A stretch of DNA of 64,000 nucleotides. Origin: Polaribacter sp. HaHaR_3_91. Its GTDB lineage: Bacteria; Bacteroidota; Bacteroidia; Flavobacteriales; Flavobacteriaceae. The stretch spans positions 3,797,001 through 3,861,000 of the forward strand of contig NZ_CP058986.1 of assembly GCF_019278525.1 (NCBI RefSeq), in the 5' to 3' direction. Each line of letters starts with the position of its first letter. Position 1 is the first letter of the stretch. Both the position numbers and the translations under genes were made by a program. The notes beneath the pieces are model-generated. The model searched no databases. It saw nothing but the letters and a program-made list of their open reading frames with translations, and had not been told where the DNA came from. This document shows positions 11,566 to 27,660 of the stretch, piece after piece.

Positions 11566-11588
11566 CATAACTAAAATTGTCAGTTATA

Positions 11589-14500
11589 GTGTCTAAAAAA
11601 ATAAAGAATAAAAAATATCGATTTTTAAGAAGATTCTTACGAGTTTTTTTAGGACTAATCATTCTTGTTAGTTTTTTAATACTTTTTATTAGAAGCCCTT
11701 GGGGACAAAGTGTTATTGTTGATAAGGCAGTAAACTATGTTACCGATAAAACAAACACTAAAATTACTGTAGACAAGCTATTTTTAACCTTTAAAGGTGG
11801 TTTGCAATTAGAAGGCTTGTATGTGGAAGACACCAAAGGAGACACGTTGGTATACTCTAAATCGTTAGAAGCAAACCTACCTCTTTGGGGAATGATTAAA
11901 GGAGGTGCCGTTGGTGTAGACAATTTAGAATGGAATGGTTTACGTGCCAATATTATAAGAAAAGACAGTCTTTCTGGGTATAACTTTCAGTTTTTAATAG
12001 ATGCATTTGCATCAGAAGAACCAACTCCTGTTGTTGAAGAAACAACCTCTGAGCCAGTAGATATTATTCTTGGAAATATTGATTTATCAAATATTAATGT
12101 TGTTTTTAAAGATGATGTAATAGGAATTGACAGTCATTTTAAAATTGGAAATCTAACTGCCAATATGGATAAAGTTGATTTGCAAAAAATGATTTTTAAT
12201 GCTGATGAAATTTCTCTTTCTGATACAAATATTAAACTTATTCAAAAGCCTGTAATTTCAAATACGCCAACTACAGAAAGTATTTTACCCACTTTATCTG
12301 TAAATAAGCTTTCTCTTAAAAAGGTTGAAGCTTATTTTGAAAACCCACAAGATCAATTAATTGCTGATGTAAGGGTTGCTGATTTTTATACAGAAATCCC
12401 TGAAATTAATTTATCTACAAACAAAATAAATCTTACCACACTTCAACTTAAAAGTTCTGATGTTCTCTTAAAAACAATTTCAACAAATACTGCAACCGTT
12501 AAAGAAACATCAAACAGTGATATCGCATTTAACTGGCCAGATTTTGAAGTACAAGTAAATGATATCAATTTAGAAAACAATAAGATTCAGTATTTTGTAA
12601 ATAATGAAAAAGTGGTTCAAAATGTGTTCAATCCGAATGCACTTGTTTTAGAAGATGTAACCTTAAAAGCATCTGATATTTTATTAAAAGACCAAAAAGC
12701 AAATTTGAAATTAAGTGCTTTAAATTTTAAAGAAAAATCTGGATTTAGATTGAGGGAACTCGCACTAAATGCGGAAATAACAGATACAGAATTAAAAGTT
12801 TCAGACCTTAAAATCTCATTCAAAAAAAGTATGATTGCTGGTTTTGCAAATGCGAATTATAAATCACTTTCTCAATTCATTTCATCACCAGAAAACACAA
12901 AAATTAACATAGGCATTCCGTCATTCTCACTCTTTTTAGATGAACTTTTTACGTTTCAACCGAGTTTAAAACAAAATGAATATGTAACCAAATTAAGTAA
13001 AAAAGAACTTTTTGGTGAAGTAAATATAAATGGAGTTTTAGCTGATTTAAATATTGCCAACACCAACCTTAATTGGGGTAATTACACTAAAATATCTTTA
13101 GATGGAAACATCAAAAACAGTACAAACCCAGATAAGTTACAACTAAACATTCCTAATTTTGAAGCAAAGACAAAACGAAATGATCTTTTACAAATTGTAG
13201 ACGAAAAAGCATTAGGGATTCATTTGCCGGAAGATATTTTAATAACGAGTAATGCAAAAGGTACTTTAAGCAACATCGTTACAAATACTAAAATAAATAC
13301 ATCACAAGGTATTGCAACAATTAAAGGAAACTTTAAAAACGAAGCAAAAATTAGCTACAATACGGATATAAAAATTGAAAACTATAATGTTGGTACCCTT
13401 TTAATGAATCCTAATTTTGGTGAATTAAGTGTTCAATTAAAATCGGAAGGAAGCGGTAAAAGTATTCAGGATTTAGATGCCACGCTACAAACTACCATTT
13501 CTAAATTTCAGTTAGAAAAGTATGAAATAAGAGACTTACAAATAGAAGGAGATTTTAAAAATAGTATCGGAAAAATTACCTCAACATATAAAGATAAAAA
13601 TGTAAACTTAGATTTATTAGCTAATGTAGCGTTAGACTCTATAAACACCAAAGCAACTGTTAATTTAAATCTAATTGGTGCAGATTTAGAAGCACTTAGT
13701 ATTATGCAGCGTAAGGTAAAAACGGGTATGGAACTTTCTTTAAACTTTAAAGGAAACCCTAAAAAATACACTTTAAAAAGTAACATAAAAAATGGTGTAG
13801 CCGTCTATAATAACAGAACGTTTTTAGTAGGAGACTTTGCTGTTAATGCCTTTGTAGATAAAGACACAACGGCTGTTTCTATCAAAAATAAAATGATTGA
13901 TTTAAATTTAGAATCAAACACAGATCCACAAACTTTTAGTAACGCTTTGCAACGTCATGTTGCTAGTTATTTTTATAGAGATGTTACGGTTTCCGACACC
14001 GTTAAAAGTCCAGTAAATTTAAAATTAAAAGCTAAAATTTCTCAAACGCCACTTTTAAGAGATGTCTTCTTGGTTAATTTAAAAGATTTAGACACTATAA
14101 ATATTGATGTCGATTTTAAAGAGAAGAAACGAAAACTAACTGCCAATATTACGGCTCCTCACATTAATTTTAGCGATAATGAATTAGACAGTTTATCTTT
14201 TTCTATGCTTACAGATAATGAAGATTTCAATTTTAATTTAGGTTTTAAAGAAATTAAAGCAGGACCTTTAAATGTACCAAAAACTGTTATTACAGGAATT
14301 CAACAAAACAACGAATTGTCCCTTAATTTTTTAGGTTTCTATGACGGAGAGAAATTAATGAATGTAAACTCAAAAATTACTGGAAACAGCGATAAATTAA
14401 AGTTTACCATAGATCAAGATAGTTTGTTATTGAATAGTAATAAATGGAAAATTCCGAAAACAAATGCCGTTGTATTTGAAAATAATAAACTCACATTCTC

Positions 14501-16616
14501 TGATTTTAAAATCAGTAAAAACAATCAATCTATAGAAATTACAGATAAAATATCCCGTATAGCAGGAGATCACATCGGCTTAAATTATAAAAATTTTGAA
14601 ATAAATGAAGTTTTTAATTATTTAAGTCCAGAAAAAGAGATTGCAGCAGGAACTTTAAATGGTGATTTTATTTTAGAGCAACCTTTTGGTGATACAGGTA
14701 TTATTGCAAATTTAAGTATTAATGAATTACAAGTATTAAAAACAGCTTTTGGTACCTTAAGTTTAGATGCCAAATCTTTAGAAAATGGTAAATATGATTT
14801 TAATGCTAGCTTAAAAGAAGGGGCCATAGACTTAGATTTAAAAGGAGATTATTTTGTAGATAATAATGATGCTAACTTAAATTTAGATTTACTCATTAAC
14901 AACTTTAAAATGCAAGCTTTAAACACACTGTCTTTGGGGGAAATTAAAGAAACTTCTGGTAGTCTCTCAGGAAATTTTAAAGTAACAGGCACAACATCAG
15001 ATCCAAAATATAAAGGGAACTTAGATTTTACAAATGCAGCTTTTAAAGTGACCAAACTAAACGCAAAATTTAACTTACAGAACGAAACTTTAAGTGTAGA
15101 TAACAGCGGTTTATCTCTCTCTAACTTCACCATTTTAGATGGCGAAAAAAATGCTTTAGTTGTTTCAGGAACCGTTAAAACCAAGAGTTTTATAAATCCT
15201 ACCTTTAATTTAGACATTAAAGCCAATAAATTTAGAGTGCTAAACGCTACAAAAGAAGACAATGAATCGCTTTACGGAAAAGTCTCTTTTAATGTAGATG
15301 CAAAACTAACTGGAAATTTACAGGTTCCTAAATTAAATGCAAAATTAGTGGTGGGTTCAGACACAGATGTTACCTATGTGTTACCTTCTAGTTATGCAAA
15401 TATAGAAGAAAGAGAAGGAGTTGTTGCTTTTGTTAATAGAGAAAATCCGGATGCAATTTTAACTCAAAATGAAGAACAAATTGCTATAATTACAGGCTTT
15501 GATTTAAAAGCGCTCTTAAAAATTGATAAAGAAGCTGCCGTAAAAGTTATCATAGATAAAGAAACTGGCGACAATTTTAAGATTTCTGGTGATGGTGATT
15601 TTGTTTTATTAATGGATCCTAATGGTCGTTTAACTTTAACAGGTGCTTATGAAGTTGCTAGCGGACATTACGAACTTAACTTATACAATGTTGTAGATAG
15701 AAAATTTGTTTTAGTTCCTGGAAGTAGAATTTCTTGGGCAGGAGACCCGTTAGATGCTAAATTAGACATCCGTACAAGTTACACCTTAAAAACCTCTGCC
15801 TCTACCTTAATGGCTTCTCAAATTTCAGGAGAAGATTCAGCAACCAAAAATAAATACAAACAAGTATTGCCATTTAATGTGTATTTAAATATTGATGGAG
15901 AATTGTTACAGCCAAAAATATCTTTTAATTTAGACATGCCAGAAGACCAACAAGGCGCCATTAGCGGTCAGGTGTATGAACGTGTGCAACAAGTAAACCA
16001 ACAAGAAGACGAATTAAACAGGCAAGTTTTTTCTTTATTAGTTTTAAATAGGTTTTATCCAGATGCTGGTAGCGATGGTAGTTCTGGTGGTTTTGCAACA
16101 ATTGCTAAAAACAATTTAAATGATGCTGTTTCTGGACAATTAAATTCTTTTTCTGATAAAATTCTTGGAGGTTCTGGTATTGAATTAGATTTTGGTTTAA
16201 ATAGTTTTACAGATTACCAAGGAGACGCACCAACCGATAGAACACAATTGGATGTTGCTGCTCAGAAGAAATTATTTAACGATCGTTTAACCGTAAGAGT
16301 TGGTAGCGAAGTAGACATACAAGGTAGCAGTTCTACGGAAGAAAAATCGCCTTTAATTGGTAATGTGAGTTTAGAATATAAAATTACAGAAGATGGCAGA
16401 TACCGTGTTAGAGGTTTTAGAAAAAGTGAATTTGAAAATGTGATAGACGGACAAACCATTGTAAGTGGAATTGCATTAATTTTCACCAAAGAGTTTAATG
16501 AGTTTCATCAACTTTGGGATTCTATTTTGAGTGCTAATAAAGATAGTGAAACCACAAAGGAAACGGATGATCTAAAAACAACAAATAAGACTAAAAATTC
16601 AGAAAATAAAAAGTAA
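11589..16616 (+). CDS. tamB: TamB-type translocation/assembly protein
   Basis: About 1675 residues. An N-terminal membrane anchor (hydrophobic segment about residues 19-34, FLGLIILVSFLILFI) precedes a very long periplasmic stretch of repeating beta strands. The C-terminal 400 residues form the TamB (DUF490) domain, including LTLTGAYEVASGHYEL and GSRISWAGDPLDAKLDI. TamB-like proteins span the periplasm as a hydrophobic groove and are linked to lipid transport and outer-membrane protein assembly. There is no ATG start: the frame opens with TTG at 11577 or GTG at 11589, and the promoter position favours the GTG. The stop is 7 bases ahead of the TamL gene, so they form an operon, as expected for a partner pair. 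Confidence 0.9.
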   Translation: MSKKIKNKKYRFLRRFLRVFLGLIILVSFLILFIRSPWGQSVIVDKAVNYVTDKTNTKITVDKLFLTFKGGLQLEGLYVEDTKGDTLVYSKSLEANLPLWGMIKGGAVGVDNLEWNGLRANIIRKDSLSGYNFQFLIDAFASEEPTPVVEETTSEPVDIILGNIDLSNINVVFKDDVIGIDSHFKIGNLTANMDKVDLQKMIFNADEISLSDTNIKLIQKPVISNTPTTESILPTLSVNKLSLKKVEAYFENPQDQLIADVRVADFYTEIPEINLSTNKINLTTLQLKSSDVLLKTISTNTATVKETSNSDIAFNWPDFEVQVNDINLENNKIQYFVNNEKVVQNVFNPNALVLEDVTLKASDILLKDQKANLKLSALNFKEKSGFRLRELALNAEITDTELKVSDLKISFKKSMIAGFANANYKSLSQFISSPENTKINIGIPSFSLFLDELFTFQPSLKQNEYVTKLSKKELFGEVNINGVLADLNIANTNLNWGNYTKISLDGNIKNSTNPDKLQLNIPNFEAKTKRNDLLQIVDEKALGIHLPEDILITSNAKGTLSNIVTNTKINTSQGIATIKGNFKNEAKISYNTDIKIENYNVGTLLMNPNFGELSVQLKSEGSGKSIQDLDATLQTTISKFQLEKYEIRDLQIEGDFKNSIGKITSTYKDKNVNLDLLANVALDSINTKATVNLNLIGADLEALSIMQRKVKTGMELSLNFKGNPKKYTLKSNIKNGVAVYNNRTFLVGDFAVNAFVDKDTTAVSIKNKMIDLNLESNTDPQTFSNALQRHVASYFYRDVTVSDTVKSPVNLKLKAKISQTPLLRDVFLVNLKDLDTINIDVDFKEKKRKLTANITAPHINFSDNELDSLSFSMLTDNEDFNFNLGFKEIKAGPLNVPKTVITGIQQNNELSLNFLGFYDGEKLMNVNSKITGNSDKLKFTIDQDSLLLNSNKWKIPKTNAVVFENNKLTFSDFKISKNNQSIEITDKISRIAGDHIGLNYKNFEINEVFNYLSPEKEIAAGTLNGDFILEQPFGDTGIIANLSINELQVLKTAFGTLSLDAKSLENGKYDFNASLKEGAIDLDLKGDYFVDNNDANLNLDLLINNFKMQALNTLSLGEIKETSGSLSGNFKVTGTTSDPKYKGNLDFTNAAFKVTKLNAKFNLQNETLSVDNSGLSLSNFTILDGEKNALVVSGTVKTKSFINPTFNLDIKANKFRVLNATKEDNESLYGKVSFNVDAKLTGNLQVPKLNAKLVVGSDTDVTYVLPSSYANIEEREGVVAFVNRENPDAILTQNEEQIAIITGFDLKALLKIDKEAAVKVIIDKETGDNFKISGDGDFVLLMDPNGRLTLTGAYEVASGHYELNLYNVVDRKFVLVPGSRISWAGDPLDAKLDIRTSYTLKTSASTLMASQISGEDSATKNKYKQVLPFNVYLNIDGELLQPKISFNLDMPEDQQGAISGQVYERVQQVNQQEDELNRQVFSLLVLNRFYPDAGSDGSSGGFATIAKNNLNDAVSGQLNSFSDKILGGSGIELDFGLNSFTDYQGDAPTDRTQLDVAAQKKLFNDRLTVRVGSEVDIQGSSSTEEKSPLIGNVSLEYKITEDGRYRVRGFRKSEFENVIDGQTIVSGIALIFTKEFNEFHQLWDSILSANKDSETTKETDDLKTTNKTKNSENKK

Positions 16617-16623
16617 ATAAATT

Positions 16624-18918
16624 TTGAAAACACCCTATACAAAACAGCTCTTTTTAATAGTACTATTCGTTTTTATTTACGGTTGTGGTATAAAAAAACA
16701 CATTCCAGAAGGCAAGCGTTTGTATACGGGCGCTAGCATTGTTATTAAAGCCGATTCTACCTTAGAAAAAGTAAAAGAACTACAAGACGATTTGGTTACT
16801 GTATTAAGTCCAAAACCCAATACAAGGCTACTAGGAATGCATCTAGGGCTGTATTATTACTATAAAAATCAGCAAGAAAACCCTGGTTTTTTAAGTAGGT
16901 GGTTGTATAAAAAAATCGGACAAAAACCAGTCTATCAATCAGACATAAACGTTTTAGAAAATGAAAACCTTTTACGAAACAAACTAGAAAATTATGGGTT
17001 TTTCTATAGCACCATTGCTCCTAATTTTAAAGAAAAGAAAAAAGAAGCAGCTATTGTCTATAATTTAAAAGTTCCTGCTCCTTATAAAATGGCTACCTAC
17101 AAAATAGATAGTATGGTTTCGCCAATTTATAACGAGATAAAAAGATTGACCACAAAATCTCCATTTCAGAAAAATAAACGTTTCGATTTAGGGAGTTTAA
17201 AGTTAGAAAGGCTGCGTTTAGATACAGAATTAAAAAATAACGGATATTATAATTTTAATCCAGATTTTTTACTCTTTGAAGCAGATACCAATCAATATAA
17301 AAGCAATAGTAAAAAATTCGATTTGTTTTTAAAGTTGAAAGCAAAAGTTCCAAAAAAATCTACTGTTCCGTATCAAATCACTAACATCAATGTTTTTCCT
17401 AATTATAATTTAAATGATTCTACAGCTGTAAAAAGCATACGTTTCCAGGGGAAAAACTATCACCAAGACTCTGTTTATTTTAAACCAAAATATTTAGATG
17501 AATTTATCACTTTAAAAGAAGGAGAACGTTTTAACCCATCAACCTCTAAAAATACTGCTAGAAGACTTTCTTCTATTGGTGTCTATAAGTTTGTAAACAT
17601 TCAATATAAAGAATTAAAAGACTCTATAACAGACACAATTGGTAGTTTAGAGGCCAATATTTTTTTATCACCATTAACAAAACGCGCCATACGTGCAGAA
17701 CTGCAAGCCGTTACAAAATCTAATAATTTTGCGGGGCCAGAATTGTCTTTAACCTATAGCAATAGAAACTTATTTAAAGGAGGTGAAACATTAAACATTA
17801 GTACAAATATTGGGTACGAAACACAAATTACTAGTGGTACTTCTGGTTTAAGTAGTTTAGAATTAGGCCTAAAAAGTGAACTTATTTTCCCGAGAGTTAT
17901 TACTCCATTTAATATTAATAAAGATTATTTTGACTACTCTACTCCCAAAACTAAAACCAGTCTAAGCGCAACCTATTTAAATAGAAGTCAACTGTATACA
18001 CTTTTATCTGGTACTGGTATTTTTGGGTACACATGGAATGCAAATAAATATATTACGTATGAATTTAATCCTATTTCTATAAATTATACACGCTTATCGA
18101 ATACTACAGACGAATTTCAAGAAATTTTAGATAATAATTCATTTTTACAAAGTAGTTTTGATCAGCAATTTATAAGCGGACTTACTTTTTCATTTATTTA
18201 TAATGAAATGTTAAACGCATCAAAAAAACATCAATTTTTCTTACAGACTACACTAGATGTTGCTGGTAATTCTATTAGTCTATTTGATAAAAAAACAGCT
18301 GAAACAAATACTTTTTTAGGCTTGGAATACGCACAATATGCAAAAGCAGATATTGATTTAAGGTATCATTATAATTTTGGTTCTAAAAAAGAGCAAACAA
18401 TTGCCACACGATTCTTTGCTGGATATGGCTATGCTTACGGAAATTCTGATGTAATACCATTTGTAAAACAATATTATGCAGGTGGACCTTATAGTGTAAG
18501 AGCTTTTAATATTAGATCTTTAGGACCTGGAACTTATAATGATGAAACTTCAGAAAGTACAAGCTCTTTCTTTGATAAAACAGGAAATGTTCGTTTAGAA
18601 GCAAATTTAGAATATCGTTTTCCTATTTACTCTATTTTAAAAGGAGCGGTGTTTGCAGATGCAGGTAATGTTTGGAATACCGTTTCAAATTCAGATTTTA
18701 ATGATACGGATGGTAATGTTAGAGATAAGTTTACGTCAAACTTTATAAATGAATTAGGTATGGGAGCAGGTTTTGGTTTGCGAGTAGATGTACAGGGGTT
18801 TGTAATCCGTTTTGATTTGGCAGCGCCTTTTCATGACCCTTCCTTAGAAGAAGGAAAACGTTGGGATTTTAGAGCAGACGAACCTGTATTTAACTTTGCT
18901 ATTGGTTATTCTTTTTAA
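16624..18918 (+). CDS. tamL: Translocation and assembly module lipoprotein TamL (BamA/Omp85 family)
   Basis: 764 residues. The signal sequence ends in a lipobox (FIYGC, C21), so it is anchored in the outer membrane by lipid as well as by its barrel. POTRA-like repeats occupy about residues 25-330, and the C-terminal half is an Omp85 16-strand-type barrel with the YYAGGPYSVRAFNIRSLGPG lid region and terminal FNFAIGYSF. TamL is the Bacteroidota counterpart of TamA and works with TamB, encoded just upstream. The start is TTG at 16624. A 105-base gap follows before xdhC. Confidence 0.9.
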   Translation: MKTPYTKQLFLIVLFVFIYGCGIKKHIPEGKRLYTGASIVIKADSTLEKVKELQDDLVTVLSPKPNTRLLGMHLGLYYYYKNQQENPGFLSRWLYKKIGQKPVYQSDINVLENENLLRNKLENYGFFYSTIAPNFKEKKKEAAIVYNLKVPAPYKMATYKIDSMVSPIYNEIKRLTTKSPFQKNKRFDLGSLKLERLRLDTELKNNGYYNFNPDFLLFEADTNQYKSNSKKFDLFLKLKAKVPKKSTVPYQITNINVFPNYNLNDSTAVKSIRFQGKNYHQDSVYFKPKYLDEFITLKEGERFNPSTSKNTARRLSSIGVYKFVNIQYKELKDSITDTIGSLEANIFLSPLTKRAIRAELQAVTKSNNFAGPELSLTYSNRNLFKGGETLNISTNIGYETQITSGTSGLSSLELGLKSELIFPRVITPFNINKDYFDYSTPKTKTSLSATYLNRSQLYTLLSGTGIFGYTWNANKYITYEFNPISINYTRLSNTTDEFQEILDNNSFLQSSFDQQFISGLTFSFIYNEMLNASKKHQFFLQTTLDVAGNSISLFDKKTAETNTFLGLEYAQYAKADIDLRYHYNFGSKKEQTIATRFFAGYGYAYGNSDVIPFVKQYYAGGPYSVRAFNIRSLGPGTYNDETSESTSSFFDKTGNVRLEANLEYRFPIYSILKGAVFADAGNVWNTVSNSDFNDTDGNVRDKFTSNFINELGMGAGFGLRVDVQGFVIRFDLAAPFHDPSLEEGKRWDFRADEPVFNFAIGYSF

Positions 18919-19023: not shown

Positions 19024-20043
19024 ATGAATCACGAACTTAAAGAAATTATAAATCAGGCGGTCATCAACCAACAAAAAGGGTTGAAAAATGTATTGGCAAC
19101 CGTAGTACATTTAGAAGGTTCTTCTTATAGAAAACCAGGTGTACGCATGTTAATTTCTGAAGATTTAAGTTCTGTTGGAGCCGTGAGTGGTGGTTGTGTA
19201 GAAAAGGAAATTAAACACAGATCTAAAAGTGTTTTTTCTGATAACAAACCAAAAGTAATTACATACGATGGTAGGTATAAGTTAGGCTGCGAAGGTATTT
19301 TATATGTTTTAATAGAACCTTTTTTTATTACGGATGTATTTCTCACTCATTTTTCGAAAGCAAATTCAGTTAGAGAAACCATACATATTGCAAGTTACTT
19401 TACCAATGAAAATGAAGCTTTTGGAAATTTTGGTTCTGTAATTACTTTTCATAATAAAAAACAATTTACGTTTTCTGAAGGATTTAATCATCAGTATAAA
19501 AAAGACGTTATAATCTTCTCTCAAATAGTACAACCTAGTTTTAGGTTGATTATAATTGGAGGCGAACACGATGCTGTTAAACTTTGTAAAGTAGCCGCAA
19601 CATTAGGTTGGGAAATTGATGTGATAACCTGTATTAAGGATTCTAAAGAATTAAAAGATTTTCCGGGAGCAAATTCGGTAAATGGTGATTCTACAGAAAC
19701 TATTCAATTTACAAATATTGAAGAAAATACGGCTATTGTAATTATGAATCATAGTTACGTACAAGATTTAAAATATGTTATAAAGCTGTCTGAATATACA
19801 CCAAAATATATTGGTATTTTAGGCGCTCCAAACAGAAGGGAACGATTGTTTAACGAGCTTTTTGAATTTGTACCAGATATTTCTGATGAATTTTTAGAAA
19901 CTATTTATACACCTGCAGGTTTACATATTGGTGCAGAAACCCCAGAAGAAATTGCCGTTTCTATTGTCGCGGAAATTCTATCTGTAATTAGAAAAAAAGA
20001 GCCTTTTTCTTTAAGAAAATTAACAGGGAAAATTAACACATAA
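19024..20043 (+). CDS. XdhC/CoxI family protein
   Basis: 339 residues with both halves of the family: an N-terminal XdhC-CoxI domain (GGCVE at 56-60, LGCEG at 87-91) and a C-terminal Rossmann domain (IIIGGEHDA, then YIGILGAPNRRERL and PAGLHIGAETPEEIA). XdhC proteins bind sulfurated molybdenum cofactor and hand it to xanthine-dehydrogenase-type enzymes. The usual LGCGG is LGCEG here. Four bases separate it from the MocA-like gene, so the two form a cofactor-maturation unit, yet no molybdenum enzyme is in the window. Confidence 0.9.
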   Translation: MNHELKEIINQAVINQQKGLKNVLATVVHLEGSSYRKPGVRMLISEDLSSVGAVSGGCVEKEIKHRSKSVFSDNKPKVITYDGRYKLGCEGILYVLIEPFFITDVFLTHFSKANSVRETIHIASYFTNENEAFGNFGSVITFHNKKQFTFSEGFNHQYKKDVIIFSQIVQPSFRLIIIGGEHDAVKLCKVAATLGWEIDVITCIKDSKELKDFPGANSVNGDSTETIQFTNIEENTAIVIMNHSYVQDLKYVIKLSEYTPKYIGILGAPNRRERLFNELFEFVPDISDEFLETIYTPAGLHIGAETPEEIAVSIVAEILSVIRKKEPFSLRKLTGKINT

Positions 20044-20047
20044 ATTT

Positions 20048-20647
20048 ATGAAAAACATTGCTGTTTTAGTTTTGGCTGCAGGCAAATCATCTAGAATGAA
20101 TAGCATAAAACAGTTAGAAAAAGTAAATAATAAAACACTTTTAGAACATACTTTAGAGAAAATACAACATATTTATGCTTCCACTATATTTTGTATTTTA
20201 GGCGCAAATGCTGATAAAATTAAATCAGAAGTAAGCACTAGAAACGTTCAATTTATTGAAAATACTAATTTCGAAGATGGATTAAGCTCTAGCATCGTTT
20301 CTGGCATTCAGTACTTTAAACAAAATAATTTCAATTTTGAAGGCATTTTTATCTTATTAGCAGATCAACCAGCTATTGATGTTGCTTATATTGAAGATAT
20401 GCTTCATTTATTTGAACAACATAAAGATAAAATTATAGCATCTAACTATGGTGAAAAATTAGGTGTTCCTGCAATTTTTCCTAAAAAATATTTTTCTGAT
20501 ATATTTCTTATAAAAGGAGACAAAGGCGCAAACGAATTCATCAACAAAAAGAAAAACGAAATTATTTGTTCTACAATACCAACAAACTTCTTAGACATAG
20601 ATACCAGAGAAGATTTGCAACGATATAAAAACTCAATTTTAAAATAG
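20048..20647 (+). CDS. MocA/MobA-like nucleotidyltransferase
   Basis: 199 residues with the nucleotidyltransferase signature LAAGKSSRM (9-17), a second lysine at K21, and the LLADQPAI block (near 106-113) that holds the metal aspartate. The family transfers CMP or GMP to molybdopterin; with XdhC directly upstream, the cytidylyltransferase MocA is the better guess, but substrate choice cannot be read from the sequence. The product is cytoplasmic. It is 14 bases ahead of the large surface lipoprotein gene and may share its transcript. Confidence 0.85.
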   Translation: MKNIAVLVLAAGKSSRMNSIKQLEKVNNKTLLEHTLEKIQHIYASTIFCILGANADKIKSEVSTRNVQFIENTNFEDGLSSSIVSGIQYFKQNNFNFEGIFILLADQPAIDVAYIEDMLHLFEQHKDKIIASNYGEKLGVPAIFPKKYFSDIFLIKGDKGANEFINKKKNEIICSTIPTNFLDIDTREDLQRYKNSILK

Positions 20648-20661
20648 TTATTTTAGCACTT

Positions 20662-23600
20662 ATGAAACTACTTAGATATTCCATATTCTTTTTACTTTTT
20701 TTATGCATTTCTGCCTGCGCAACCATAAAAAAACAAATTGCAGACAACCAACCTAGCGTGATTAAAAAGGATAGTTCTAAAATTGAACATACTTTTTATT
20801 TAATTGGAGACGCAGGAAACTCAACATTAGAAGAAGATTCACCTGCTTTAAAATATTTAAAAAAGCACATTAAAAGTGCATCAGAAGAATCTACTTTACT
20901 TTTTTTAGGTGATAATGTCTATGAAACGGGTATACCTGATAAAGATTCTAAAAAATATCCTTTGGCAAAAAGAAGAATTGAAGCGCAAACAAATGTTGCG
21001 AAACAATTTAAAGGAAAATCTATATTTATTCCAGGAAATCACGATTGGTATCATGGTCTAGATGGCTTAAAAAGAGAAGAAAAACTAGTTGAAAAAGCAT
21101 TAGGAAAATCAGCTTTTTTACCGAATAATGGTTGTCCGTTAGAAAAAGTTAAAATTTCTGAAGACATTGTTTTAATTATTGTTGATACACATTGGTATGT
21201 AACAAACTGGGACAATCAGCCCACAATAAATGATGAATGTGAAATTAAAACAAGAGAAAAATTCTTTGATGAATTTGAAGGACTCATCAAAAAAGCAAGG
21301 GGAAAAACAACGATTGTGGCTTTACACCACCCAATGTTTACAAACGGTTCTCATGGCGGACAATATTCTTTTAAAAGCCACATGAGTCCACTACCTGTTT
21401 TAGGTTCTCTTAAAAATTTAATTAGAGAAACCTCTGGACTTTCAAATACCGATATTCAGAATAAAAAATATAACGAACTAAGAAAGCGTATTATCACACT
21501 CTCTCAAGAAAATGATAAAACGATTTTTGTTTCTGGTCACGACCATAACCTACAATATATTGTAGAAGATAATTTACCTCAAATAATAAGTGGTTCTGGT
21601 TCTAAAACAATGGCGACCAAATTAACAGGAAATGCAAAATTTACTTATGGAGCGCAAGGTTTTGCCAAGTTAGATATTTATGAAGATGGTTCGTCTAACG
21701 TTGCTTTTTATACCGTAAAAGATGATAAAATTGTATACGCCACAGAAGTTTTACCTGCCAATGAAAACACCAACTTTGCTCCGTTTACTAATACTAATAT
21801 AACAGCAAAAAAAGCATCTATTTACACCAAAGAGGAAGTTGAAAAAAGTGGTATTTATCGTTTTTTATGGGGAGAACGTTATAGAAAATATTTTGGTACA
21901 GAAATAAATGCACCTACGGTAGATTTAGACACTCTTTTTGGCGGATTAAAGCCTGTTAGAAAAGGTGGCGGACATCAATCTAAATCATTAAGACTTGAAG
22001 ACTCAGAAGGTAGAGAATATGTAATGCGTGCCTTACGTAAAAATGCTGTTCAGTATTTACAGGCAGTTGCTTTTAAAGACCAATATATAGAAGGCCAATT
22101 TAACAACACTGCTACAGAAGGCTTGTTAAATGATGTTTTTACAGGTTCTCATCCATATGCACCTTTTACTATTGGTAAATTAGCTGATGCAGTTGGTGTT
22201 TATCATACAAATCCTGTTTTATATTACATTCCTAAACAAAATAGTTTAGGGAATTTTAATGATGAATTTGGTGGTGAATTATACATGATTGAAGAAAGAG
22301 CTGCTTCTGGCCACGGAGACAAAGAAAGTTTTGGGTTTGCAGATGAAATAATTAGTACAGATGATTTATTAAAGAAATTAAGTAAAAATGAACATCATAT
22401 TTTAGACGAAAAAGCATACATAAAAGCACGTTTATTCGACATGTTAATTGGAGATTGGGACAGACACCAAGACCAATGGAGATGGGCTATTTTTAAAGAA
22501 GGTGAACAGACAATTTACAGACCGGTTCCTAGAGATAGAGACCAAGCTTTTGCTGTCTTTGGTGACGGTTTTTTATTAAATATTACCACAAAATTAATAC
22601 CTGCATTGCGTGCAATGCAATCGTATAAAGAAGATATTGGCAGCCCAAAATGGTTTAATTTATCTCCGTATCCTTTAGACATGGCATTAATTACAACAGC
22701 AACTAAAAACGATTGGGATGCACAAGTAAAGTTAATAACCACCAACCTTACAGATGCAGTTATAGAAGATGCTTTTACTAATTTCCCTAACGAAGTAAGA
22801 GACCATACTGTTTTAGAAATAAAAACTAAATTACAAGTCAGAAGAAAGAATTTACAAAAAATTTCTGATGCATATTTTCAACATCTAAATAAATTTCAGG
22901 TTATAAAAGGTACTCATAAAGATGATTGGTTTGATATTGAAAGAGTCCCTAATGGAGGTACAAAAATAACTGGATACCGAATTATAAAAGGCGAAAAAGG
23001 AACCATTTTTCATGAACGAACTTACAAGAAATCTGACACCAAAGAAATCTGGATTTATGGTTTAGATGATGATGACACTTTTGTAATAAAAGGCGAAGCT
23101 AAAAACTTAATAAAAGTTAGAATTATTGGCGGTCAAAACAACGATGTTTATAATATTTTAAATGGTAAAAAAGTAAAAATTTATGATTTTAAATCTAAGA
23201 AAAACACTTTTATAACAAACAAAGGCAGTAAAAAGTTAACAGATAATTACGAAACGAACGTGTACGATTACACGAAGCTTAAAAACAATCAGTTTATTAT
23301 ATCTCCAACCATTGGTTTTAATGCAGACGACGGTGTAAAATTGGGTGTTTCTAATGTATATACTTCTTTTGGCTTTGAGAGAAACCCATTTACTTCTCAA
23401 CATACCTTAAATGCTGCCTACTATTTTGCAACTAGTGGTTTTGAATTTGATTATTCTAGCGAGTTTGCAAACGTTATAAAAAATTGGAATCTAGGCGTAA
23501 AAGCACGTTTTACAAGTCCTAATTTTGCTATGAATTATTTTGGTTTAGGGAATAACTCTAAAAACCTAAATGCTCCTCATGAAATTAAATACGAAGAATA

Positions 23601-24345
23601 CAACAGGCTTAAAATAAAAGAATTGAGTGCTGGTACTTTTATACAGTGGAAAGGAGATTTAGATGGAACAATAAAAGTAGGTGTAAATTTTCAAAACTTT
23701 AAAGTAGAACAAACACCTAACAGGTTTATAAGTGATACTTTCTCATCAAATAATGCCATTTTTAACAATCAACAATTTATAAATACAGAAGCTGGTTATC
23801 AGTTTGAAAATGCAGATAATACTGCTTTTCCAACAATGGGAATGAAAACATCCTTAAAAGTAGGATATACTTCTAACCTTAAAAACAGTAACAATTTTGG
23901 ATATTTAATTCCTGCTATTTCTTTTGATTATAAATTGATTTCTAGCGGAAAACTAGTGCTTGCAACCAAAGTAAAAGGACATTATAATTTTGGAGATTCT
24001 TATGAGTTATATCAAGCAGCAAGTATTGGTGGTAATGATGGTTTAAGAGCCTATAGAAACGAACGTTTTACAGGAAAAAATTCAGTGTATCAATCTACAG
24101 ATCTTCGTTTACTTTTAAGTAAAGTTAAAACAAGTATTGTGCCTCTAAACATTGGTATTTATGGAGGTTTTGATTACGGAACTGTTTGGGGACAACAAAA
24201 CACCACCTTTAACAATACTAAATTTAACACTTCTGCTGGAGGAGGTATTTTCTTTAACGCAGCAAATATGTTAGTTGCAAATGTGGCTGTATTTAATGGA
24301 GATGATGGAGTAAGAGCAACTGTTAATTTAGGATTCAATTTTTAA
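20662..24345 (+). CDS. Surface lipoprotein: metallophosphoesterase, kinase-like module and outer-membrane barrel
   Basis: 1227 residues in three parts. A lipoprotein signal ends at C19 (CISAC). Residues about 43-350 are a calcineurin-like metallophosphoesterase with GDAG (D50), GDN (D84), GNHD (125-128), HH (222-223) and GHDH (292-295). Residues about 425-720 do not belong to that fold and carry a glycine-rich stretch RKGGGHQSKSLRLED followed by a lysine/arginine strand YVMRALRK (453-460), then LIGDWDRHQDQWRW (595-608) and PVPRDRDQAF (621-630). That order of glycine loop, basic strand, DRH and DxD resembles HipA/FAM20-type atypical kinases. Residues about 870-1227 are a BamA-like beta barrel with RAYRNERF and terminal NLGFNF. 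The phosphoesterase and barrel calls are firm; the kinase-like reading is inference. The protein is probably outer-membrane bound. Confidence 0.8.
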   Translation: MKLLRYSIFFLLFLCISACATIKKQIADNQPSVIKKDSSKIEHTFYLIGDAGNSTLEEDSPALKYLKKHIKSASEESTLLFLGDNVYETGIPDKDSKKYPLAKRRIEAQTNVAKQFKGKSIFIPGNHDWYHGLDGLKREEKLVEKALGKSAFLPNNGCPLEKVKISEDIVLIIVDTHWYVTNWDNQPTINDECEIKTREKFFDEFEGLIKKARGKTTIVALHHPMFTNGSHGGQYSFKSHMSPLPVLGSLKNLIRETSGLSNTDIQNKKYNELRKRIITLSQENDKTIFVSGHDHNLQYIVEDNLPQIISGSGSKTMATKLTGNAKFTYGAQGFAKLDIYEDGSSNVAFYTVKDDKIVYATEVLPANENTNFAPFTNTNITAKKASIYTKEEVEKSGIYRFLWGERYRKYFGTEINAPTVDLDTLFGGLKPVRKGGGHQSKSLRLEDSEGREYVMRALRKNAVQYLQAVAFKDQYIEGQFNNTATEGLLNDVFTGSHPYAPFTIGKLADAVGVYHTNPVLYYIPKQNSLGNFNDEFGGELYMIEERAASGHGDKESFGFADEIISTDDLLKKLSKNEHHILDEKAYIKARLFDMLIGDWDRHQDQWRWAIFKEGEQTIYRPVPRDRDQAFAVFGDGFLLNITTKLIPALRAMQSYKEDIGSPKWFNLSPYPLDMALITTATKNDWDAQVKLITTNLTDAVIEDAFTNFPNEVRDHTVLEIKTKLQVRRKNLQKISDAYFQHLNKFQVIKGTHKDDWFDIERVPNGGTKITGYRIIKGEKGTIFHERTYKKSDTKEIWIYGLDDDDTFVIKGEAKNLIKVRIIGGQNNDVYNILNGKKVKIYDFKSKKNTFITNKGSKKLTDNYETNVYDYTKLKNNQFIISPTIGFNADDGVKLGVSNVYTSFGFERNPFTSQHTLNAAYYFATSGFEFDYSSEFANVIKNWNLGVKARFTSPNFAMNYFGLGNNSKNLNAPHEIKYEEYNRLKIKELSAGTFIQWKGDLDGTIKVGVNFQNFKVEQTPNRFISDTFSSNNAIFNNQQFINTEAGYQFENADNTAFPTMGMKTSLKVGYTSNLKNSNNFGYLIPAISFDYKLISSGKLVLATKVKGHYNFGDSYELYQAASIGGNDGLRAYRNERFTGKNSVYQSTDLRLLLSKVKTSIVPLNIGIYGGFDYGTVWGQQNTTFNNTKFNTSAGGGIFFNAANMLVANVAVFNGDDGVRATVNLGFNF

Positions 24346-24805: not shown

Positions 24806-25651
24806 CTAAAACTTCAACTCATAAAAATTACCGCCAACACCATCGGCTTTTTCATCGGTAATATATAAAGTATTATTGTCTTTAAAAGTAATTCCTTCTT
24901 TTTGAGAATAAGAATTTAATGGAATTTTGGTTAATTTTCCTGATAAAAAATCATCGTTTTTATAATCCGTAAAAATTAAAACAGCAGCAGGTGACAACAA
25001 TGCTACTTTGCTACCATCGTCAGAAATATCTGCAGAAGTAATCCAACATTCCTTGTCGTTACAATTATTAAATTCAGAAATAAATACTGCTTCATGTTTC
25101 CCTTCTTTAGCAGGAACCTTGTATAAAGAGGTTTTACCATACTTTTCTTCTACCCTACTTTTAGTAAACACATAAAATGAATTATTATAATAGAAAAAAG
25201 ATTCTGCATCAAAAAACAGTTTTTTCTTTTTAGGTGGAAACTTCTTTTGTTCCGGATAAGAAAACTTAATTTTTTCTACTTTTATTTTTTTAGAACTTGT
25301 TAAATCACCATGTTTTACTTTTAAAATAACAAGGTTTTCTCTTTCACTATCATTATTTCCAAAATCACCAATATAAAGGTTTCCTTCTTCGTCGGATGCA
25401 AGGTCTTCCCAATCGTGGTTTTTTTCTTTTATGGTAAGCTCTTCAACAATATTTCCGGTAGCAGAAACACCGTAAATTTTAGGTTTATTTCCACTATCGT
25501 TTAGCATCCAAATTAAATCTGAATTGGCAACTACTTCTGCTCCAGAAACCTCTTCTAAGTCTTTTGATAATTCTGATATAAGTTTTAAACTACCAAAATT
25601 TTGACAACTAACTAAAGACAAAAAACTAAAAATTACAGTTATTACTTTCAT
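24806..25651 (-). CDS. Lipoprotein with propeller-like repeats
   Basis: About 281 residues. A short lipoprotein signal (VIFSFLSLVSC) is followed by repeated beta-strand segments with recurring acidic turns such as NDSGNKPKIYG, DEEGNLYIGDFGNN and DDGSKVALLS, which suggests a beta-propeller of the SdiA-regulated or esterase-like kind. A TTG at 25657 is possible but the ATG at 25651 gives the normal signal length. It faces the redox and envelope genes convergently and shares no operon with the LemA cluster because a strong hairpin (25678-25709) lies between. I cannot name a substrate. Confidence 0.7.
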   Translation of the reverse strand: MKVITVIFSFLSLVSCQNFGSLKLISELSKDLEEVSGAEVVANSDLIWMLNDSGNKPKIYGVSATGNIVEELTIKEKNHDWEDLASDEEGNLYIGDFGNNDSERENLVILKVKHGDLTSSKKIKVEKIKFSYPEQKKFPPKKKKLFFDAESFFYYNNSFYVFTKSRVEEKYGKTSLYKVPAKEGKHEAVFISEFNNCNDKECWITSADISDDGSKVALLSPAAVLIFTDYKNDDFLSGKLTKIPLNSYSQKEGITFKDNNTLYITDEKADGVGGNFYELKF

Positions 25652-25677
25652 CAACAATTCAATTTATTTTAATATTA

Positions 25678-25761: not shown

Positions 25762-26613
25762 TTACCAGCCACCAGAAGCGCCACCTCCACCAAAACTACC
25801 TCCGCCGAAACCGCCTCCAAAGCCTCCTCCACCGAAGCTTCCGCCTCCAGATGAACTTCCAAAACCACCGCCAAAACTTCCGCTACCTCTACCGGCGTTA
25901 CTTAAAATAATAGTTTCTAAAATAGCGCCTGCAATAGATCCGCTTCTAAAACCTCTACCACCACTACCATTATTTTTATTTCCTCTAGAAATTAAAATAA
26001 AAATGATGAATACTATAATGATAAAAATAATAATCCCAGGATCAAAACCTTCTGCATCTTTTTGCCTACTTCCTTTAAACTCTCCGTTTAAGGTTCTAAA
26101 AATATAATCAGACCCTTTGTCTAAACCGCTATAATAATCTCCTCTTTTAAACTCGGGAATAATAACTCTTTCAATAATTCTCTTTGCCTGAAAATCGGTT
26201 AAAAGATGCTCTGTACCTTTACCAGCTTGAATAGCAATTCTTCTGTCGTTTAATGCCAACAACATTAAAACACCATTGTCTTTTTTTGCATCACCTATTC
26301 CCCATTTCTCTCCCCAATTAGCTGCTAAATAATTAATATTTTCACCTTCGGTGGATGGAATAATAGCTACTACAATTTGAGTAGAAGTGGTATCTGAATA
26401 ACGAACCAATTTACTTTCTAAACTTGTTTTTTGACTCTCAGTTAATAAACTAGTATAATCATATACACTGGTTTGAAACTCTGGAATTTCTGGGATTTGA
26501 TACCCTTGAGAAAAAACACTTAACGTGAATAAAAACGCAATAAAAAAAGTAATTTTTCTAAAAAATACTGCTAACTGAATACTACTTACTGAATACTGTT
26601 TACTGTATATCAT
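25762..26613 (-). CDS. TPM domain membrane protein, glycine-rich tail
   Basis: 283 residues. A hydrophobic segment near 23-35 acts as signal peptide (ending VFSQG), followed by a TPM domain (about 45-185; NGVLMLLALNDRRIAIQAGKG is the family core), a membrane helix (about 195-208) and a very glycine/serine-rich tail after residue 213. TPM proteins occur with LemA and are linked to membrane-protein quality control. The first 20 residues (KQYSVSSIQLAVF) come from imperfect ACTGAATACT repeats in the DNA, an odd extension before the signal. It overlaps the upstream TPM gene by 4 bases. Confidence 0.85.
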   Translation of the reverse strand: MIYSKQYSVSSIQLAVFFRKITFFIAFLFTLSVFSQGYQIPEIPEFQTSVYDYTSLLTESQKTSLESKLVRYSDTTSTQIVVAIIPSTEGENINYLAANWGEKWGIGDAKKDNGVLMLLALNDRRIAIQAGKGTEHLLTDFQAKRIIERVIIPEFKRGDYYSGLDKGSDYIFRTLNGEFKGSRQKDAEGFDPGIIIFIIIVFIIFILISRGNKNNGSGGRGFRSGSIAGAILETIILSNAGRGSGSFGGGFGSSSGGGSFGGGGFGGGFGGGSFGGGGASGGW

Positions 26614-27047
26614 CCTTTAGAAATCTCATTAGAAAGTTCATCTACATCATCAATTTGCCAAGGAAAGTGTGATTGCAATTCTTTTCCTGCCTTTAAAATT
26701 CCGTCTACAATTCCTTGTTTAAAAGCACCTTGTTTAAAATGATTTTGCATTACATCTTTAGTCGTATCCCAAAAATCTTTTGGTACTACTTTGTTAATTC
26801 CTTTATCACCATAAATAACAAATTTCTTGTCTTTTACAGCAACGTAGATCAACACTGCATTATCATCTTTAGTGTTGTTCATTTTTAGCAAATGAAAAAC
26901 TTCTAACGCTCGTTCATCATGATTCTTCTCTGTGGTAGCCTCAATATGCACTCGTATTTCGCCAGAAGTTTCTTTCTCTGCAACTCTTATAGCAGAAATA
27001 ATTTCTTGTTCTTCTTCTGGAGACAGAAACGCTTCTACTTTAGACAT
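26610..27047 (-). CDS. TPM domain protein, soluble
   Basis: About 145 residues from the ATG at 27047 (MSKVEAFLSPEEE); the frame continues nine codons upstream into lemA but the ATG sits just after the lemA stop. It is a single TPM domain with SGEIRVHIE, AVLIYVAVKDKKFVIYGDKGI and VPKDFWD, without a signal or membrane helix, so it is probably cytoplasmic. TPM domains have phosphatase-like folds, but activity is uncertain. Middle gene of a lemA-TPM-TPM operon; it starts one base after the lemA stop and overlaps the next gene by 4 bases. Confidence 0.9.
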   Translation of the reverse strand: MSKVEAFLSPEEEQEIISAIRVAEKETSGEIRVHIEATTEKNHDERALEVFHLLKMNNTKDDNAVLIYVAVKDKKFVIYGDKGINKVVPKDFWDTTKDVMQNHFKQGAFKQGIVDGILKAGKELQSHFPWQIDDVDELSNEISKG

Positions 27048-27048
27048 A

Positions 27049-27660
27049 TTATTCTTTTTTATTATTAAAATCAAAGTTTACATCTGGTGCATTTTCAGAT
27101 CCTGCATCTGCTTTATAACGATCCATTTCATCAAAATTAAACATTCCTGCTAACACAGAATTTGGAAATACTTTGATGTGTTTGTTATAATTATTTACAC
27201 CTTCATTAAAACGATCTCTAGCAACATTAATTCTGTTCTCTGTACCTTCTAATTGACTTTGTAATTCTAAAAAGTTTTGATTCGCTTTTAATTCTGGATA
27301 ACGCTCTACTGAAACTAATAATTTTGATAACGCACCTGTTAAGCCAGATTGCGCTTGTTGAAATTGCGCCATATTATCTGCTGTTAAATCTCCTGCATTT
27401 ATATTTACAGAGGTAGCTTTTGCTCTTGCTTCAATCACTTCTGTTAAAGTAGTTCTTTCAAAATCTGCTGCTCCTTGTACTGTTTTAATAAGATTACCAA
27501 TTAAATCATTTCTACGTTGGTAAGAGCTCTCTACATTAGACCAAGTTGTTTTTGCATCTTCTTGTAAAACAACAGCTTCATTATTAAAGTTTTTACCCCA
27601 ATTGTATACTCCGAAAACAACAACAAGGATTACTATTACTGGTATTAACCATTTTTTCAT
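27049..27660 (-). CDS. lemA: LemA family protein
   Basis: 203 residues. An N-terminal membrane anchor (residues 4-19, WLIPVIVILVVVFGVY) precedes a helical cytoplasmic or periplasmic domain with the LemA signature WSNVESSYQRRNDLIGNL and LKANQNFLELQSQLEGTENRI. The N-in or N-out topology cannot be told. LemA is usually next to TPM genes, as here, and the set is thought to act in membrane homeostasis. A clear promoter box lies about 44-51 bases upstream (27704-27711). Confidence 0.95.
   Translation of the reverse strand: MKKWLIPVIVILVVVFGVYNWGKNFNNEAVVLQEDAKTTWSNVESSYQRRNDLIGNLIKTVQGAADFERTTLTEVIEARAKATSVNINAGDLTADNMAQFQQAQSGLTGALSKLLVSVERYPELKANQNFLELQSQLEGTENRINVARDRFNEGVNNYNKHIKVFPNSVLAGMFNFDEMDRYKADAGSENAPDVNFDFNNKKE

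Follow-up and report, generated by a model that had tools for sequence, protein, structure and literature searches.

Among the described proteins closest to the one analysed here are two Omp85 fusions. In PlpD-type patatin-Omp85 proteins an enzyme domain is joined N-terminally to an Omp85-type outer-membrane barrel, and the Omp85 'Metallo' subfamily, catalogued in 2014 by Heinz and Lithgow, combines a PF00149 domain, termed a metalloprotease, with an Omp85 barrel without POTRA domains (PMC4104836, available text). The protein of interest is encoded in a 64,000-nucleotide stretch of the Polaribacter sp. HaHaR_3_91 genome (the window; contig NZ_CP058986.1, positions 3,797,001 to 3,861,000) and has both a PF00149 domain and an Omp85-type barrel without POTRA; it and the 'Metallo' subfamily are probably the same protein group. 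It differs from PlpD in its enzyme and in the POTRA domain, which is PlpD's, and from the 'Metallo' proteins as described in that the intervening region is here a predicted kinase-like domain, about one third of the chain; in the main text of PMC4104836, as far as accessible, the word 'kinase' is absent. Literature searches, which mostly did not cover subscription papers, found no published description of the kinase-like part or of the fusion, and the accessible main text of the paper on the KINtaro kinase-like database (PMC10870513) makes no mention of 'Bacteroid-'. What is new is the kinase-like family, with an active site that is both unusual and conserved and with its linked genes, set within a known type of Omp85 fusion. 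An earlier reading of the sequence alone (the sequence-only reading) had called the whole a new arrangement, which holds for the kinase part, but phosphoesterase-Omp85 fusions were already catalogued in 2014, and a protein search scored 4897 relatives at E <=0.001 among 7998 candidates.

We lean towards a reading in which the protein is an enzyme of the outer membrane, anchored by lipid and facing the periplasm, whose single Omp85-type barrel carries two phosphate-handling sites of opposite action (Table 1). The purple-acid-phosphatase-like site would remove phosphate, the atypical kinase-like site, of the PI4KII/CotH/HipA branch of the fold, would transfer it, and the barrel and lipid anchor would keep both at the outer membrane. 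Both sites may be catalytically alive, with shared or linked substrates in the envelope (protein, lipid or phosphate polymer), and the enzyme may have its place in how the cell manages phosphate or polyphosphate. The direct basis is the anatomy of the protein, predicted folds, conservation, split-gene relatives and gene neighbourhoods. The source genome is a single contig of 4.2 Mb with one match to the protein; close relatives that carry organism names are Polaribacter, and the named relatives among 120 listed are entered as metallophosphoesterase, phosphoesterase, calcineurin-like phosphoesterase, predicted phosphodiesterase or hypothetical protein.

Table 1. Features of the protein and its convergent neighbour, with positions in the window.
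Feature	Residues	Position	Strand	Basis or remark
Whole open reading frame, ATG start	1227 in all	20662..24345	+	functional names among relatives: (metallo)phosphoesterase, predicted phosphodiesterase
Lipoprotein signal peptide; lipobox ISAC at 16-19, Cys19, then ATIKKQ	1-19	20662..20718	+	sequence
Purple-acid-phosphatase-like metallophosphoesterase; motifs GDAGN, GDNVY, GNHDW, HHP, GHDHN	39-368	20776..21765	+
Kinase-like domain	~382-744	21805..22893	+	predicted structure
Glycine-rich loop RKGGG between two strands, start of kinase-like fold	433-437	21958..21972	+	model, alignment
K460, end of next strand after glycine-rich loop	460	22039..22041	+	alignment, 91/94; R456 on same strand, 92/94
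Conserved glutamate E544, strand of first lobe	544	22291..22293	+	alignment, 92/94
Putative catalytic-loop motif DWDRHQDQWRW	598-608	22453..22485	+	D600 at CotH catalytic Asp, Q605 at CotH Asn position
RDRD; D625 at second CotH aspartate position	624-627	22531..22542	+	alignment
Beta-strand domain linking kinase-like domain to barrel	745-841	22894..23184	+	short relatives have it too
Omp85-type 16-strand barrel	875-1227	23284..24342	+
Convergent neighbour, SdiA-regulated/phytase-like propeller lipoprotein		24806..25657	-	recurrent beside family members

Judging from its predicted structure, which the sequence-only reading had set beforehand as the first half of the test of its proposal, the middle part almost certainly has a two-lobed kinase-like fold. 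In the model (numbered as protein residue minus 371) the glycine-rich loop is followed by the strand bearing R456 and K460 and by E544 on a later strand, and D598 and D600 come after a long helix, D625 and D627 after the following hairpin. The motifs from which a HipA/FAM20-type kinase had been proposed (RKGGG, VMRALRK at 454-460, DWDRHQDQWRW and RDRD) are all present as described. Of that assignment the kinase-like fold stands, but the predicted structure matches PI4KII and CotH better than HipA or FAM20, and its fold agrees with that of PI4KII. D600 and D625 correspond, by motif and near-equal spacing, to the two essential aspartates of CotH. HipA is less probable as the closest relative, being unsupported by its Z of 11.6 against 15.2 and 14.2. 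The PI4KII lipid kinases are themselves distant, at about 11% identity, and have neither barrel nor phosphatase; lipid is here one candidate substrate.

Conservation was counted in 94 aligned sequences not fetched by motif pattern, the window copy included, whose identity to the window copy runs from 24% with a median of 32%. The full alignment, drawn from 201 kinase regions, keeps the 174 that are unique and 250 residues or longer; the pattern DRHx[DG]QWxW had served to fetch the loci of 80 rows, which therefore agree at 600-608 by selection and were not counted, and the degenerate copies of loci L196, L194 and L214 were kept among the 94. G428, D491, D593, D598, W606, D625 and G636 are identical throughout this set, D600 and H602 are found in 88 sequences, R601 in 92, W608 in 93, D627 in 91 and Q605 in 91 (Asn in the remaining three), and R456, K460 and E544 in the numbers given in Table 1. 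By this alignment, conservation of the middle-part motifs is far beyond chance, and the conserved lysine, catalytic aspartate and second metal aspartate of the protein-kinase-like superfamily appear to be kept (K460, D600, D625); the equivalent of the nucleotide-binding lysine may be R456 or K460. Bacillus subtilis CotH is inactivated by D228Q and by D251A (PMC7821199, available text), and the motif aspartates are 23 residues apart in a Bacteroidota CotH aligned to B. cereus CotH, close to the 25 between D600 and D625. Because of the motif and this near-equal spacing, D600 is likely the catalytic aspartate and D625 the second metal aspartate. We regard the kinase-like part as probably an active phosphotransferase of some kind.

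The case for a kinase is built on fold and conservation pattern rather than on any resemblance in sequence to named families, and a number of observations weigh against it. The middle region of the window protein is unannotated: neither Pfam, at E up to 10, nor NCBIfam has a match for it, and PDB sequence searches, run with the whole protein and with a profile of 23 middle-part rows, returned no kinase. A Pfam scan of 23 members gave Fam20C (PF06702) in one (E 0.0015) and CotH (PF08757) in one (E 0.025), both weak; these single-member kinase matches are at noise level, the unrelated EnY2 matching 19 of 98 members with a best E of 0.0031, and neither kinase family is among the matches listed (25 of 64 families) in the scan of all 98. 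Comparison of the kinase-like profile with that of CotH found weak similarity, at probabilities of 4-24% and E of 0.01 to 8e-4, with one of the 29 CotH rows (L154, a wrong open reading frame) excluded; with that row included the probabilities are 14-54%. The top Foldseek match has a low query-normalised TM-score of 0.35. Gln605 plausibly takes the place of the usual metal-binding Asn, which CotH has at +5 from its catalytic Asp, and the periplasm is normally without adenosine triphosphate (ATP), a donor problem that is the weak point of the kinase reading.

Other profile comparisons are less telling. Against Bacteroidota HipA sequences (hhalign) the kinase-like profile scored below 1%, but the comparison is insensitive here, because CotH against HipA, true fold relatives used as a positive control, also stayed below 4%. 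Profiles of the phosphatase, barrel and propeller scored below 3% (CotH against propeller 2%, or 10% with L154), and the 95-98% obtained with the beta-domain profiles reflects mere overlap within one protein. The window protein is set apart from the CotH spore-coat kinases (PF08757) by the absence of a Pfam CotH match, by Gln in place of Asn and by its fusion to a phosphatase and a barrel, and from HipA/CtkA by the lack of profile similarity, subject to that insensitivity. HipA (PF07804) had no match in the window protein at E up to 10. The genome carries a separate CotH-family gene, L134 (G000:C1:2544379-2545371), and no HipA_C match.

The Gln at the metal Asn position and the lack of periplasmic ATP lend some weight to a pseudokinase scaffold, in which the kinase-like part would bind a nucleotide or phosphorylated ligand and only regulate or position the phosphatase and barrel, leaving the phosphatase as sole enzyme. 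D600 is moreover lost in 6 of the 94 sequences, some paralogues clearly so, and a non-catalytic role is possible within the family. We nevertheless find this doubtful, given the retention of K460, D600 and D625 in most or all sequences. In four of the loci that have lost D600 (L032, L033, L034 and L196) a degenerate copy adjoins an intact one, suggesting that the intact form is needed, and 41 of 175 rows, labelled by length, are long proteins (>=780 residues) without a phosphatase match, so that regulating a phosphatase is not all that the part does.

These adjacent copies (L032 5433-7055 and 7192-8778, L034 6498-8108 and 8226-9854, likewise in L033 and L196) read GDWSRR or DWERN at the catalytic Asp in the degenerate member, with the partner intact. 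They possibly represent, to judge from their motifs, a bacterial kinase-pseudokinase pair, and recall the kinase FAM20C with its pseudokinase partner FAM20A. Among the three sequences with Asn at 605, L194 and L214 have also lost D600 whereas L197 keeps it; L194 and L214 are kinase-barrel proteins that read DWN...ENW for DWD...DQW and sit on a long branch within a phosphatase-bearing clade. A further relative, P0210, has no glycine-rich loop, reads DWDREPDHW and PKNRD, and is probably a degenerate kinase.

The kinase region occurs in 142 of 395 genomes of the phylum, in several architectures. The first 51 loci comprise phosphatase-kinase-barrel proteins (1203-1305 residues), kinase-barrel proteins (852-918 residues, with one more ending at a contig edge) and short lipoprotein-like forms without a barrel (518-570 residues). 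On a 67-row tree built by a quick method the presence of the phosphatase switches five times, at least four of these being forced by starred branches. An independent indication that the three parts belong together comes from L035 and L036, whose genomes share one genus (g78) and count as one case: here kinase (518/545 residues), phosphatase (403 residues) and barrel (394/395 residues) are three consecutive genes on the same strand, the split genes of L036 carrying PF00149 and PF01103 in Pfam. Fused or split, the three modules recur in company, and two of them retain their catalytic residues.

The phosphoesterase assigned to the first part by the sequence-only reading is confirmed, with PF00149 covering residues 45-295 (E 2.7e-10), and can be narrowed: its fold and its metal-ligand motifs, GDxxY among them, are those of purple acid phosphatases, to whose kind the domain belongs. 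It differs from purple acid phosphatases in being fused to a kinase-like domain and a barrel. The C-terminal outer-membrane barrel is likewise upheld: NCBIfam Omp85_fam covers residues 881-1216 (E 4.4e-14, although at 52.8 bits against a cut-off of 200), and the barrel is modelled with 16 long strands of the BamA/TamA type. Its L6 loop reads LRAYR, with LRGYR as the family consensus, where the Omp85 motif is (V/I)RG(F/Y). No POTRA domain before the barrel was matched in Pfam at E <=1, whereas the neighbouring gene at 16624-18918 does match POTRA; such domains are usual in the Omp85 superfamily but not required, several subfamilies having none. An Omp85 barrel would also suit an assembly or translocation factor whose enzyme domains serve only outer-membrane protein quality control, as proposed for the 'Metallo' proteins in 2014 and the most cautious assumption for an Omp85 protein that is still uncharacterised (PMC4104836, available text). 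This we think unlikely, as PF00149 is a phosphoesterase family and not a protease as stated there, no POTRA is matched, kinase-like lipoproteins without any barrel exist (L032-L034), and several neighbours are phosphate genes.

The sequence-only reading had correctly recognised a lipoprotein but placed its enzymes at the cell surface. Some Bacteroidota lipoproteins are indeed exposed there, and the export signal of Capnocytophaga needs two acidic residues (PMC5080379, available text). No such acidic signal follows Cys19 in the window protein. A simple lipobox pattern was found in 42 of 77 full-length relatives surveyed, and positions +2 to +6 are free of acidic residues in 34 of these, hold one in eight and more than one in none. 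Furthermore, as its strand number is even, the barrel would leave the N-terminal parts on the periplasmic side, as for PlpD, whose patatin domain is periplasmic (PMC11116518, available text). The enzyme parts thus quite likely lie in the periplasm, and a kinase/phosphatase acting at the surface is improbable.

The gene neighbourhood hints at phosphate. In 51 of 80 loci, all Bacteroidota close to the window's family and inspected with some 5 kb of upstream flank, an SdiA-regulated/phytase-like propeller lipoprotein is encoded convergently downstream, and in five more it stands in another arrangement. Among 58 other loci, selected by architecture from the kinase-region listing (some genomes giving two), 22 have a propeller-type gene as the immediate codirectional upstream neighbour, the gap being -1 base in five. 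That the gene takes different places in different groups speaks for function over common descent alone. Of 128 genomes, 23 from 8 families have polyphosphate kinase 1 (PPK1, PF13090) no more than 5 kb away, against a chance estimate of about 0.4% per genome, and 41 from 9 families no more than 20 kb away, against about 1.4%, 18 of the latter coming from one family (f24) and probably reflecting one inherited arrangement; these counts are based on 150 kinase places in 128 of the 142 genomes, one sub-cut-off and four fragment PPK1 rows being left out. In L044 a codirectional run consists of an HD/PycTM gene, PPK1, a propeller gene and the phosphatase-kinase-barrel gene, in L210 likewise without the phosphatase, and convergent pairs occur as well. 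These recurrent PPK1 and phytase-like neighbours suggest a phosphate or polyphosphate role, to which we give about even chances. Counting against it are the window genome itself (G000), which has no PF13090 match, and the 37 listed genomes of the window's family, none of which has PPK1 within 20 kb, so that around the window itself nothing supports a polyphosphate link.

The frequent proximity of PPK1 outside the window's family, a compartment without ATP and the unusual conserved QWxW that follows the catalytic motif would all accord with a kinase fold put to other chemistry, such as the transfer of adenosine monophosphate (AMP) or another group, or the use of polyphosphate or another donor; SelO is a kinase-fold protein that moves AMP. 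Motif spacing near that of the CotH kinases speaks against this reading, which we hold to be unlikely. More specific, and the least probable of the readings considered, is a new envelope kinase family using polyphosphate or another non-ATP donor in the ATP-poor periplasm: the kinase-like site would phosphorylate an outer-membrane substrate, the joined purple-acid-type phosphatase would strip the phosphate, the barrel would hold both, and the propeller lipoprotein and polyphosphate kinase would supply or sense the donor.

Other neighbours were noted in passing. The kinase-barrel gene is grouped with PPK1, a histidine-phosphatase-family gene and an HD-PycTM protein in L044, L192, L210, L201 and L216; the second of these, presumably SixA-like, has Pfam support for L192 only, and the third (Pycsar effector membrane domain) for L044, L192 and L210. 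In L198 (3502-5669), L199 and L211, all of one family, the kinase-barrel gene has a CotH kinase gene in its vicinity, with a gene matching Porin_O_P (PF07396, E 8e-5) between the two in L198. In the window, TamB and a POTRA-bearing Omp85 (TamL-like) gene form a pair shortly upstream (11577-18918); a conserved linkage to this tamB/tamL pair was considered and set aside, the pair standing beside the gene in only 1 of 80 loci. XdhC/CoxI-type and MocA-type cofactor genes (19024-20647) lie directly upstream, as in 7 of the 80, and two TPM-domain genes and a LemA gene, an ordinary row, occupy 25762-27660 on the minus strand.

A family of thousands of scored relatives, named only for its phosphoesterase in the listed part, carries a second, strongly conserved kinase-like part. 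For the periplasm and outer membrane of Bacteroidota we know of no other kinase and phosphatase that share one chain. The protein is a concrete candidate for reversible phosphorylation in these compartments, where one protein may both add and remove phosphate, and it would give Omp85 barrels an unaccustomed part in phosphate metabolism.

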